DNA of 64,000 nt from a virus. The translations under genes were made by a program, and so were the position numbers. Below the pieces are notes generated by a model, which saw only the letters and a program-made list of their open reading frames with translations, did not search any database and was not told the DNA's origin. This document shows, piece after piece, positions 16,379 to 56,288 of this stretch (positions are counted from its first letter, which is position 1; the number at the start of each line of letters is the position of its first letter). The stretch is taken from positions 62,001-126,000 of IMG/VR virus record IMGVR_UViG_3300028883_000032; one strand, 5' to 3'.

Positions 16379-16388
16379 GGAATAAGAA
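16379..16388 (+). promoter_or_regulatory. ATAAGA-class phage promoter box
   Basis: GGAATAAGAA followed by AGTATGG. One of 13 + strand copies of GGNATAAGAW, each at the head of a short transcription unit. Here it precedes the 113-aa + strand gene. Confidence 0.75.
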
Positions 16389-16418
16389 AGTATGGTTAAC
16401 TTACTCGGGAGACGTAAC

Positions 16419-16760
16419 ATGTTTGCAAAGCTTGAAAGAGCACTCGGCATCAGTATTCATACTGATGATCTGCTTGAAATGGTGAAGCTCATTGAAGATG
16501 TTATCAACGATTCGGGTTACAAAACCAATTACGTTTTGTGCCTTATCAAGATTGGACGATACGTTGATACGCCATACGCCAACATTCTGGCAGCTTTTCA
16601 ATCAGTGCTTGGTGCATCAGATGCAGAGTTGATGGCTTTCGGCGATCTGCAAGCTCAACTGACGAAGCACGTCAAGACTGTCGTCTTAGACGACGTCTAC
16701 CTATGCAAGTACTGCAATTATGGTCTTGAACACCCATTCCCGTTACATAATCAAAATTAA
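16419..16760 (+). CDS. Hypothetical protein (113 aa), monocistronic
   Basis: ATG 16419 is chosen because CGGGAG lies seven bases upstream; an in-frame ATG at 16392 sits too close to the promoter box. The product starts MFAKLERALGISIHTDD, is mainly helical and ends with a Cys pair (CKYC) and His. Own promoter and terminator on the strand opposite the structural genes. No family recognised. Confidence 0.75.
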   Translation: MFAKLERALGISIHTDDLLEMVKLIEDVINDSGYKTNYVLCLIKIGRYVDTPYANILAAFQSVLGASDAELMAFGDLQAQLTKHVKTVVLDDVYLCKYCNYGLEHPFPLHNQN

Positions 16761-16762
16761 GA

Positions 16763-16786
16763 TTACGGGCTTAAGCCCGTTTTTTA
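16763..16786 (+). terminator. Intrinsic terminator
   Basis: ACGGGC-TTAA-GCCCGT followed by TTTTT. Ends the 16419 unit; the stop codon of the convergent - strand gene (16784) lies in its T-run. Confidence 0.9.
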
Positions 16787-17116
16787 GTAGTCCTGTTTAC
16801 CGTTATTGTCACGTTCTGGGATATCTTTAATTGATCCCTTGCCATGACGTTTTTCATGGTCTTTAGCCATCTTCTTTGCAATACGCGGATGTGTTGCAAA
16901 CATATAACGTTGCTGGGCTTTTGACTCAAATCCAAGCTTTTTCAAAGATGTTTTTTTCTTCTTTTTAGAATGGGATAATCCGCATTCTCCATGTTTTTTA
17001 AAGTATTCCACCTGTTGTAACCTCTTTATTGCGTGTGATCTGTGTTCATATGGTCCGCCAAGATTTTTACCCAAGCGGGAAACAACATAGTAACCATCTT
17101 TTCTTTTAACTATCAT
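16784..17116 (-). CDS. Phage protein with ESKAQQRYMFAT motif
   Basis: 110 aa, very basic. The C-terminal segment ESKAQQRYMFATHPRIAKKMA is a motif I recall from many phage proteins next to or within structural genes, of unknown function. The N-terminus is a small domain (KDGYYVVSRLGKNLGGPYEH). AAAGGTG precedes the ATG. Confidence 0.65.
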   Translation of the reverse strand: MIVKRKDGYYVVSRLGKNLGGPYEHRSHAIKRLQQVEYFKKHGECGLSHSKKKKKTSLKKLGFESKAQQRYMFATHPRIAKKMAKDHEKRHGKGSIKDIPERDNNGKQDY

Positions 17117-17129
17117 AAAGCACCTTTAT

Positions 17130-17139
17130 GGCATAAGAT
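17130..17139 (+). promoter_or_regulatory. ATAAGA-class phage promoter box
   Basis: GGCATAAGAT followed by TGTGTAACCTAAC, almost the same leader as the - strand copy at 39993-40002. Precedes the 28-aa gene and a structured RNA. Confidence 0.78.
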
Positions 17140-17167
17140 TGTGTAACCTAACTTTAGGAGAAGAATT

Positions 17168-17254
17168 ATGCCTCGTGGAGACGGAACGGGTCCTGACGGA
17201 AAAGGACCACGGACGGGCAGAGGTACGGGAACGTGCCCCCCAGTAAAAAAATAA
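17168..17254 (+). CDS. 28-aa MPRGDGTGP peptide (DUF5320-like N-terminus)
   Basis: AGGAGAAG precedes ATG 17168. The peptide starts MPRGDGTGPDGKGPRTGRG and ends in Cys-Pro-Pro-Val-Lys-Lys. This Gly/Arg-rich opening is the conserved head of a small protein family (DUF5320-like) seen in diverse bacteria and archaea, of unknown function. Here only the head remains, followed by a structured noncoding tail. Confidence 0.65.
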   Translation: MPRGDGTGPDGKGPRTGRGTGTCPPVKK

Positions 17255-17487
17255 CGGTATGACAGGTCCACGTGTGTTAAGTCTCAGAAGGCAGAGCTGC
17301 CCTATCCTAGGAATTGGGGTGGAGCCGTGTGCACGGGATCCGGCTTTCGAGCCTTCGCGACCCCTACGAGTAGCGAAGGACAAGGCTCGCATCAAAACGC
17401 AGTGCAAATCCACGGACACTACAGTGGACTTATCGCCCCACGTTGGGGCAACCGCCAAACAAGGTACTTCGGTGCCTTGTTTTTTTA
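17255..17487 (+). ncRNA. Structured 3' RNA / noncoding RNA A
   Basis: About 230 bases with no convincing ORF but dense pairing: GTCCAC (17266) with GTGGAC (17424) closes a large domain; CCTTCGC (17352) pairs with GCGAAGG (17373), extended by CGAG/CTCG; GGCAGAGCTGCC and CCCCACGTTGGGG form local hairpins; a terminator closes it. Higher GC than the flanking genes. Either a riboregulator or a small RNA processed from the 28-aa mRNA. Confidence 0.6.
17459..17487 (+). terminator. Intrinsic terminator
   Basis: ACAAGG, TTCG-type loop, CCTTGT, then seven T. Overlaps the stop of the convergent membrane-protein gene. Confidence 0.9.
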
Positions 17488-17946
17488 CAGCAATGTCAAT
17501 AAAATATACAGCATGAAAGCAAATATAAAACCAATACTTACTGCCCCATTAAAGTCCCAATTCAACCAATCTGCAAAACTAAACCCATTTGAATACAGTA
17601 GTTCCTGTTTCCATGCAGGCTGCTTATTACCATATATATACCAAGGTTTCCAACCATCAAATACTTCCCACAGACCTCCTATTACCCAAGATGTCAAACA
17701 TGCTACTATTGGCATTAAAGCAGTTTGCCAATTAAATAAAAACCAGAATGCAGCGACTAAAACTAAAGCAATAAATAAACTGCCGAGTAGGTGCCATTTT
17801 CCATATTTTCCAATATTGGTCTCTTTAATAAAATTCCACTTAAACCCAAACCTGTTAGTACGCACAGCGTCTGGACCTTCGGGAAGACCATCTGTTGGAT
17901 ACCCAAAAAAATCTCTTGTTTTTTTAGTAAAATACAAATCCATCAT
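17485..17946 (-). CDS. Integral membrane protein (153 aa)
   Basis: Three hydrophobic segments: about residues 53-72 (LGSLFIALVLVAAFWFLF), 75-92 (ALMPIVACLTSWVIGG) and 134-153 at the C-terminus. Trp-rich loops between. It overlaps the upstream nucleotidyltransferase by four bases (ATGA), as last gene of a four-gene cassette. Function unknown; nothing identifies it as a holin. Confidence 0.7.
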   Translation of the reverse strand: MMDLYFTKKTRDFFGYPTDGLPEGPDAVRTNRFGFKWNFIKETNIGKYGKWHLLGSLFIALVLVAAFWFLFNWQTALMPIVACLTSWVIGGLWEVFDGWKPWYIYGNKQPAWKQELLYSNGFSFADWLNWDFNGAVSIGFIFAFMLYILLTLL

Positions 17947-55156: not shown

Positions 55157-55191
55157 CGCCCTCTTCGCACATTGTGCGGAAAGGGCGTTTT
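55157..55191 (+). terminator. Intrinsic terminator
   Basis: CGCCCT...AGGGCG with inner CGCAC/GTGCG, then TTTTATTT. Ends tract F and holds the stop codon of the facing ribbon-helix-helix gene. Confidence 0.85.
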
Positions 55192-55501
55192 ATTTAGCCC
55201 TAATTTTCCTTACTTCTTCTCGTACACGGTAGAATGTTAGTAGTTCTTCGTATTGTTCTGCGTCTACCCCGAGGAACTCTATAAGATTTTCTTGTGTTTC
55301 TGCCCACTCCAAGAGTTTTTGGGGAGTAATCTCGTCTCCACTAGGAGTACAGATGGGTATGGTTACAATGTCATCCCTGTCCCTATCTCTATACATCTTT
55401 AGAGCTTGTTCGACTACCCAACTTTTGGTTTGATAGTTGTCAGTAACCGAGTCTAACCAGTCACTTAAGCTATCACTTAATGTTATTGTGTGTCTAGCCA
55501 T
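55190..55501 (-). CDS. Ribbon-helix-helix protein (103 aa)
   Basis: ATG 55501 gives MARHTITLSDSLSDWLDSV, a beta-strand followed by helices (TKSWVVEQALKMYRDR), the ribbon-helix-helix fold of CopG/Arc-type DNA-binding proteins. An acidic C-terminal domain of about 55 residues follows. Overlaps the upstream 44-aa ribbon-helix-helix gene by eight bases. Likely a regulator of the adjacent repeat-rich region. Confidence 0.7.
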   Translation of the reverse strand: MARHTITLSDSLSDWLDSVTDNYQTKSWVVEQALKMYRDRDRDDIVTIPICTPSGDEITPQKLLEWAETQENLIEFLGVDAEQYEELLTFYRVREEVRKIRAK

Positions 55502-55628
55502 GACTCGCACAGAAGGAAGTAATCCATTTTTCTATCAAAGCAGACATACTATACCCGTGTTCTTTACATACTGCCCTGAATGTTGCCATGATCTCTTTTG
55601 ATACAGAGAAGTTAACTCGTATTTTCAT
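55494..55628 (-). CDS. Small ribbon-helix-helix protein (44 aa)
   Basis: MKIRVNFSVSKEIMATF then helix and SMSALIEKWI: almost exactly one ribbon-helix-helix unit of the Arc/CopG size. First gene after a TTGACT-N17-TATATT promoter with a leader of about 45 bases containing GAGG. Pairs with the second RHH gene downstream. Confidence 0.75.
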   Translation of the reverse strand: MKIRVNFSVSKEIMATFRAVCKEHGYSMSALIEKWITSFCASHG

Positions 55629-55679
55629 TTTTTCCTCAAAAGTTTTGTTGGGTAGTGCTAACGTGCACACCCATGTTTA

Positions 55680-55708
55680 AATATACACAATAATATGTCA
55701 TAAGTCAA
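55680..55708 (-). promoter_or_regulatory. Sigma-70-type promoter for the RHH pair
   Basis: On the - strand: AC-TTGACT, 17-base spacer, TATATT. Matches the other five - strand promoters. Confidence 0.78.
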
Positions 55709-55741
55709 GTATGAACCCCTGTTTACTTTCCAGGATAACAG

Positions 55742-56032
55742 ATGAATGCTAATAAATTTGAAGTACGTATTTTTCCCCCGAAAAGAAATTGGGGAGGGAA
55801 AACCATATCATTACGGCCATACGGAACTATACCCCCAAATTCGTACTATGGTACAAAGCCATACCAGACTGCGATAATGCAAAGAGGGTTAACCTCAAAA
55901 CGAAGAGCTTGGAAAAAAAGAAAGGCCTCTTCCGGGAAAAATACTACCTTTCCCGTAAACAAGCTTCGAGGCTCTATATCCCGCATCAGTAAAGGGGCTC
56001 AGCGACTTTTACTACCGCTTTACTACTTTTAA
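55742..56032 (+). CDS. Doubtful basic protein (96 aa)
   Basis: AGGATAACAG precedes ATG 55742 and the frame is open for 96 residues (MNANKFEVRIFPPKRNW). The second half is extremely Lys/Arg-rich. Another frame (ATG 55789, 67 aa) is equally protein-like, so one of them, or a frameshifted gene, may be real. Confidence 0.3.
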   Translation: MNANKFEVRIFPPKRNWGGKTISLRPYGTIPPNSYYGTKPYQTAIMQRGLTSKRRAWKKRKASSGKNTTFPVNKLRGSISRISKGAQRLLLPLYYF

Positions 56033-56237
56033 AAATTAGTTGGGTAGTAGCGGAACTACGCGTCAGCACTACACTTGAGCCCATTTGACTACTTTACTAC
56101 CCGGAATTCTCTAGACACATTACTGGGAAATTATCATAAATGTGTATACATACACACTTTTCAAATCTCACGCGATGTATCTAGTGAAAAAAAGCGGTAG
56201 TAAAGTAGTAATGTTGTTATTTAATAACTTACATTAT

Positions 56238-56269
56238 TATTTATTTATTTATTTATTTATTTATTTATT
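56238..56269 (+). repeat. (TTTA)n simple repeat
   Basis: About eight tandem TTTA units in a 32-base AT-only tract. Easily melted; placed between the iteron-like repeats and the promoter at 56279. Confidence 0.85.
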
Positions 56270-56278
56270 ATGTATTTA

Positions 56279-56288
56279 GGTATAAGAT
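56279..56288 (+). promoter_or_regulatory. ATAAGA-class phage promoter box
   Basis: GGTATAAGAT followed by AAAAAGGG, about 110 bases upstream of the first gene of the small-gene block. The leader contains GGTAGTA repeats. Confidence 0.7.

Follow-up and report, generated by a model that had tools for sequence, protein, structure and literature searches.

A ten-nucleotide motif, GGNATAAGAW (the box), recurs upstream of genes in IMGVR_UViG_3300028883_000032, a 206,856-base record of a large, poorly known bacterial virus, and is very probably a promoter family, judging from its sequence and placement. The analysis started from a window of 64,000 nt, i.e. positions 62,001 to 126,000 of that record. 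The box would form the core of a dedicated promoter for the RNA polymerase holoenzyme of the phage itself, composed of a fused β-β′ polypeptide and a divergent sigma-70 protein, the class B sigma factor g258; we put the probability that the box is read in this way at roughly 60%. An initial annotation of the window had noticed the motif and interpreted it as a phage promoter. Its observation was confirmed and its interpretation is partly supported; the probable reading machinery, i.e. the fused polymerase and two sigma factors, did not figure in it.

The window contains 14 copies of the box, 13 on the + strand and one on the − strand, compared with 1.49 ± 1.24 copies per 64 kb expected by chance, and 100 dinucleotide shuffles all gave fewer than 14. 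All copies listed in the initial annotation are present on the strands given there, with one coordinate off by one (41499, not 41500). The family itself is larger than these 14 copies: the whole record has 35 boxes, 34 forward and one reverse, versus one forward and one reverse copy of the reversed pattern. The gene calls made for this analysis comprise 286 genes, about 200 of them on the + strand. Although 85.5% of the record is coding, 31 of the 35 boxes are intergenic, so that the equal density inside genes that would have spoken against a promoter is not seen. A position weight matrix (PWM) built from the 35 boxes retrieved about ten further sites, mostly weaker and nearly all on the + strand; the column-shuffled control for this search is weak because the PWM columns are A-rich.

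Alignment of the 35 boxes gave the extended consensus WWWWT-GGNATAAGAW-WRTR. The five positions of the 5′ flank are mostly A/T, the last one being T, and the 3′ flank has T at offset 12 and a purine at offset 13, counted from the first box base. The downstream part, given as GTNAC-like in the initial annotation, corresponds more closely to W-R-T-R. The alignment shows no −35 element, and TTGACA was rightly reported not to accompany the boxes, as far as the + strand is concerned. At many boxes, a Shine-Dalgarno (SD) motif and a start codon follow 25–35 nt past offset 13, the predicted transcription start. An RNase H gene has its ATG (record position 191529) exactly at offset 13 of the box at record position 191516, which fits a leaderless message beginning there.

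Of 38 scored box sites, 16 have a terminator within the 60 nt that precede them, compared with 34 of 400 random intergenic points. Three box-headed stretches of the window that lack an evident gene fold far better than their shuffles (z −2.8, −3.75, and −4.6). The view that the boxes head short, self-contained units, each a gene or a structured RNA and often past a terminator, holds because of the SD motifs and start codons, the upstream terminators, and the folded gene-less stretches. The adjacency of many copies to terminators would also be compatible with a signal other than a promoter, i.e. one for DNA or RNA processing, replication, or packaging. This is improbable, given the consistently short distance to SD motifs and start codons, the RNase H gene that begins at the predicted start, the T-R step at a fixed distance, and an orientation that matches the genes preceded. 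An Rfam scan of the window returned one tRNA as its sole match, a megablast search of the window against phage records found no match, and a full-text literature search for GGTATAAGAA retrieved no paper with that sequence.

The boxes of related phages (see below) align as T-GG-TATAAG, followed by six bases, the last of which is T, and then by a purine. With this purine taken as +1, a numbering that we infer from the alignment, the register is T−15 G−14 G−13 T−12 A−11 T−10 A−9 A−8 G−7. A T is found at −15 in most sequences of the aligned sets, G−14 and A−11 are invariant, and the T-R step follows 5–6 nt after the hexamer. Transcription would start at the purine of this step, 5 nt past the box in the relatives and 4 nt past it in the present phage, which has one base fewer between the box and the presumed start; the initial annotation had placed the start 6–12 bases past the box. 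The geometry of a sigma70-type extended −10 promoter, i.e. TG at −15/−14, A at −11, and a start, here the predicted one, 5–8 nt after the hexamer, is thus present. In contrast, the T that the sigma70 consensus has at −7 is replaced in all aligned boxes by G, according to the assigned register. These features suggest an extended −10 promoter in which position −7 is always G. The box shares the TGN-NATAA geometry and the start distance with sigma70 extended −10 promoters, and differs from them by invariant G residues at −7 and −13 and by a free position −12.

Among the relatives, a −35-like element is seen in G026 (CAAATA, approximately −34 to −29) and, in weaker, A-rich versions, in D69 and G008. 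Because of these elements, the box is probably not a new class of single-block promoter. The description as a single-block phage promoter is apt insofar as the box is compact in this phage, phage-specific, and not host-like; it does not extend to those relatives that have a −35-like element next to the sigma-type extended −10. A contiguous block without a −35 element, as seen in this phage, would also be expected of a promoter of a T7-like single-subunit polymerase, which spans −18 to +1. This candidate was dropped once the −35-like elements showed up in the relatives. It is very remote, also because a bacterial-type polymerase is encoded instead; a search of the record for PF00940, which was run without a positive control, gave no match to a T7-like enzyme.

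The two strands of the record differ in their promoters. Sigma70-like promoters were found at 10 of 22 leftward operon heads (3.2 expected) versus 8 of 88 rightward operon heads (8.3 expected, i.e. no excess); the expectations are derived from single-base shuffles and are therefore rough. The leftward genes include those for the tail sheath, the terminase, and baseplate proteins. The opposite-strand promoters have TTGACA with TATATT in this phage (TTGACA-16/18-TATATT), and the opposite strand of phages D69 and Arash carries the motif TAAAATA(T), which contains the canonical T−12 A−11 ... T−7. A second motif of the D69 + strand, TAAAATAT, occurs in 12 of 24 upstream regions (0.14 expected) and is presumably late; its sites in D69 (OZ195729) include 124779, 148074, 140542, and 31104, it is also found on the Arash + strand, and several copies stand back to back with boxes.

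These canonical promoters bear on the possibility that the box is an ordinary extended −10 promoter of the host sigma70 (TGNTATAAT-like) serving early genes. T−15 G−14 and TATAA match the canonical element, and the spacing to the T-R start is normal. Against this, the box has its invariant G at −7, where sigma70 prefers T, 11 other large phages show no enrichment of it, and the same genome has canonical sigma70-like promoters on the opposite strand. We consider host sigma70 an unlikely reader of the box.

Three genes of the record encode transcription proteins, and the products of the first and third would form the proposed holoenzyme. The first, outside the window on the − strand (record 153628-159765), encodes a fused β-β′ RNA polymerase of 2,045 aa, in which β domains are followed by β′ domains in one chain (Rpb2_6, E 1.2e-62; Rpb1_2, E 1.5e-27) and the catalytic motif DFDGD is present. 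The phage thus encodes homologues of both β and β′. The second gene encodes g093, a SigA-like class A sigma factor (best E 2.8e-54). The third, g258, is a second, divergent sigma-70 protein (class B), likewise outside the window on the − strand (record 184106-184777), and was detected by a profile built from relatives (E 2.3e-61). The class B profile also matches SigA structures (E 1.8e-16) and g093.

Class B proteins lack the tryptophan pair of region 2.3, both or one of which class A sigmas retain, and class A also retains most of the SigA −10 residues. The altered class B sigma would therefore fit the G−7 box, and the canonical opposite-strand promoters together with the class A residues suggest a canonical sigma, i.e. 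class A or that of the host, for the leftward or late-type promoters. The class B residues YQN were compared between phages with and without the box: N is present in 8 of 8 box phages and Y-Q-N in 7 of 8, YQN is lost in two of four box-less phages, and one box-less phage retains it, so that no claim is based on this signature. The SigA-like g093 was set aside as the reader of the box, because class B is the sigma found in Arash virions (see below) and class A keeps most canonical −10 residues.

Relatives were collected with an alignment of this polymerase with those of Salmonella phage Arash and Vibrio phage D69 (31–32% identity) as the query. It retrieved at least 80 IMG/VR loci with a related polymerase; single-sequence polymerase and sigma scans of IMG/VR returned nothing or distant sigmas only. 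The polymerase is encoded by a single open reading frame (minimum 1,850 aa) in 58 of 80 related loci, and several others look split by introns or cut by contig ends. The polymerase gene of D69 and other relatives has intron-like insertions around the β′ catalytic region, and in D181 and D148 a homing endonuclease lies inside the matched stretch.

The exact box is abundant and confined to one strand in the relatives nearest by polymerase (0 forward and 20 reverse copies in G016, 0 and 10 in G012, 0 and 6 in G017; reversed-pattern controls 0 and 2, 0 and 1, 0 and 0), and Arash has 2 forward and 7 reverse copies (control 0 and 0). Pooled over 50 relatives, 153 copies were found versus 48 of the reversed pattern. 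For comparison, 11 other large phages, some of them with other multisubunit polymerases, had 46 versus 71 copies, i.e. no enrichment. A blind search, in which 8-mers upstream of genes were counted with no motif assumed, recovered the box or a variant in 7 of 11 other long records with a fused-type polymerase. GGTATAAG precedes 22 of 97 leftward genes of Arash (0.97 expected) and 19 of 51 rightward genes of G010, and was also found in G016 and G008; GGGATAAG was found in G021 and GGCATAAG in G026, and the variant GTTATAAG precedes 17 of 79 genes of D69 (0.5 expected).

Of 34 fused-polymerase records, some of them fragments, 22 encode a class B sigma; a 23rd match is weak and coincides in position with a class A gene. 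Class B sigmas are also encoded by D69 and Arash, and the 11 control phages have none. A search of 50,697 phage records gave strong class B matches only for Arash and D69/D181/D148, all isolates with this polymerase; the next-best matches were sigma factors of large cyanophages and are weak (E 2e-5). In Arash virions, the β subunit Gp206 was the most abundant protein detected, and the β′ subunit Gp216 and the sigma factor Gp10 were present as well (PMC10585845). Gp10 is the class B sigma, i.e. the orthologue of g258. The class A sigma of Arash, Gp196, is not mentioned in the text of that paper, which also reports no promoter motif (PMC10585845).

Several points weigh against a class B holoenzyme of the phage as the reader of the box. 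The pooled count of 153 versus 48 is driven by a subset of the relatives, and D69 shows enrichment of the variant only, with equal counts for the exact pattern (4 versus 4). The blind search yielded no box in G038, G050, G047, and G031, all of which have a class B sigma, so that box and class B sigma track each other imperfectly. The Arash virion proteome contains many enzymes, possibly as carry-over according to its authors (PMC10585845). The preference for class B over class A at the box draws on correlation and reasoning about residues only.

The strongest competitor is that the box is read by the host core polymerase with a phage sigma, g093 or g258, as in SPO1 or at T4 late promoters, other promoters being left to the phage polymerase. 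The record encodes two proteins of the sigma-70 family, g093 is SigA-like enough to fit a bacterial core, the next-best class B matches are the cyanophage sigma factors, and the route is common in phages without their own polymerase (PMC7598289). Nevertheless, the box and the class B sigma accompany the fused polymerase and are absent from the control phages, a closely similar box is kept in phages with GC contents from 36 to 58%, and polymerase and Gp10 occur together in Arash virions. We therefore regard reading by the host core as possible and distinctly less probable than reading by the phage's own polymerase with the class B sigma.

In the proposed scheme, the polymerase and the class B sigma would, by orthology with Arash, be carried in the particle and injected, and the box units, i.e. 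small genes and structured RNAs, many of them past a terminator, would be transcribed at once without the host polymerase. The leftward operons, including those for structural genes, would depend on sigma70-like promoters read by class A g093 or by the host. The odds that the box is used early and by a virion-borne enzyme in this phage are about even.

According to a review of jumbo-phage RNA polymerases, an AT-rich motif of about 10 nt, located around −10, precedes the presumed early operons of each phage with such an enzyme, and in every profiled case this motif turned out to be the early promoter (PMC7598289). The present phage has such a conserved motif upstream of operons, at a position assigned as near −10. 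Like the early promoters of the phiKZ/AR9 virion polymerases, it is a block of about 10 nt found by motif search in a phage with its own multisubunit polymerase. In contrast to the phiKZ/AR9 enzymes, which have split β/β′ and a promoter-recognising subunit (where known) without similarity to sigma (PMC7598289), the enzyme of this phage is fused and clearly cellular-like and is accompanied by two recognisable sigma-70 proteins; the box resembles an extended −10 element with G−7, in relatives sometimes with a −35. Recognisable sigma factors are otherwise usual in jumbo phages without their own polymerase (PMC7598289). Closer are Arash and the Vibrio phages D69/D148/D181, which have the same polymerase family with class B and class A sigma factors and, in the two tested (Arash and D69), the box upstream of the genes of one strand. 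Their polymerases differ in being split by an insertion and in sharing only about 31–32% identity with that of this phage; the box of D69 is the variant. The mReC Caudovirales also have a cellular-like β and β′ polymerase, and some exceed 200 kb, but no sigma or promoter is mentioned for them and fusion is given for crAssphage only (PMC7481178). The mReC capsid family PF07068 had no match here, and control genomes were silent too; the phage possibly belongs to the same wider lineage. The late promoter of T4, TATAAATA, consists of a −10 element only and is read by the small divergent sigma gp55 on the host core. The box resembles it as a −10-only phage promoter with a small divergent sigma as its proposed reader; its sequence differs, and the proposed core is the phage's own rather than that of the host.

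Table 1. Boxes and associated features in window coordinates
Feature	Position	Strand	Remarks
Class A sigma-70 factor g093, 267 aa, SigA-like	5465..6268	+	Regions 2, 3 and 4 present
Sigma70-like promoter TTGACA-17-TATATT	16343..16371	−	Back to back with box at 16379
Box GGAATAAGAA	16379..16388	+	Predicted start 16392; SD and ATG downstream; divergent from − strand sigma70-like promoter
Box GGCATAAGAT	17130..17139	+	SD and ATG downstream; top PWM score of the record
Box GGAATAAGAT	39993..40002	−	Sole − strand copy
Box GGCATAAGAA	40391..40400	+	SD and ATG downstream
Box GGCATAAGAA	40687..40696	+	Heads structured stretch without evident gene
Structured stretch, box-headed	40700..40849	+	Fold z −2.8
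Box GGAATAAGAT	41312..41321	+	No evident gene in downstream stretch
Box GGTATAAGAA	41499..41508	+	Immediately past terminator (stem 41471-41491)
Box GGTATAAGAT	42033..42042	+	Past terminator (41995-42016); heads structured stretch
Structured stretch, box-headed	42046..42195	+	Fold z −3.75
Box GGCATAAGAA	43887..43896	+	Heads structured stretch
Structured stretch, box-headed	43900..44020	+	Fold z −4.6
Box GGAATAAGAT	44034..44043	+	SD and ATG downstream
Sigma70-like promoter TTGACA-18-TATATT of leftward operon	48602..48631	−	Back to back with box at 48643
Box GGAATAAGAA	48643..48652	+	SD and ATG downstream; divergent from TTGACA-18-TATATT
Box GGCATAAGAA	49629..49638	+	Past terminator; SD and ATG downstream
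Box GGAATAAGAA	54017..54026	+	SD and ATG downstream
Box GGTATAAGAT	56279..56288	+	Upstream of ORF 56401-56661

Other genes of the record were also annotated. A tRNA-Cys at window position 4429 is the only tRNA backed by both ARAGORN and Rfam; a tRNA-Arg(acg) at 54741-54816 was called by ARAGORN and not reported by the Rfam tRNA model. Outside the window, a retron-type reverse transcriptase of 309 aa with a YADD motif is encoded on the + strand (record 161377-162306); its best match is PADLOC RT_XIII (E 3e-77), and NCBIfam retron_St85_RT matches below the cut-off (E 3e-66). It is preceded by about 840 nt without a called gene, which begin at a box (record 160526) and fold strongly just before the reverse transcriptase gene (z −3.6). 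A protein of 946 aa (record 198744-201584, +) contains a TOTE-type archaeo-eukaryotic primase domain (PF22548, E 8.6e-28). Many genes for sugar modification lie at record positions 1-35000 (glycosyltransferases, epimerases, aminotransferases, FdtA, methyltransferases), together with a single match to PF18962, the Por secretion tail domain. Positions 125000-206856 contain NAD salvage genes (nicotinate phosphoribosyltransferase, NAD synthase) and RNA ligases, possibly for the repair of NAD+ or RNA.

If the proposed reading is true, phages with a fused cellular-like RNA polymerase would gain their first promoter along with a sigma assignment. These phages are represented by four isolate records and no fewer than 80 IMG/VR loci, and the literature found does not describe their promoters. 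As a wider picture, to which we give about equal chances of being right or wrong, a widespread lineage packages a one-chain β-β′ polymerase with an altered sigma-70 that reads a G−7 extended −10 element, making early infection independent of host transcription, after which another sigma of the phage brings about the change to canonical late promoters. The system would lend itself naturally to testing how the −7 base is read by sigma region 2 and how an early-late switch between two sigma factors works. An orthogonal polymerase-promoter pair may come out of it as well, and the isolate Arash, which was grown on a laboratory strain of Salmonella, makes the idea directly testable.

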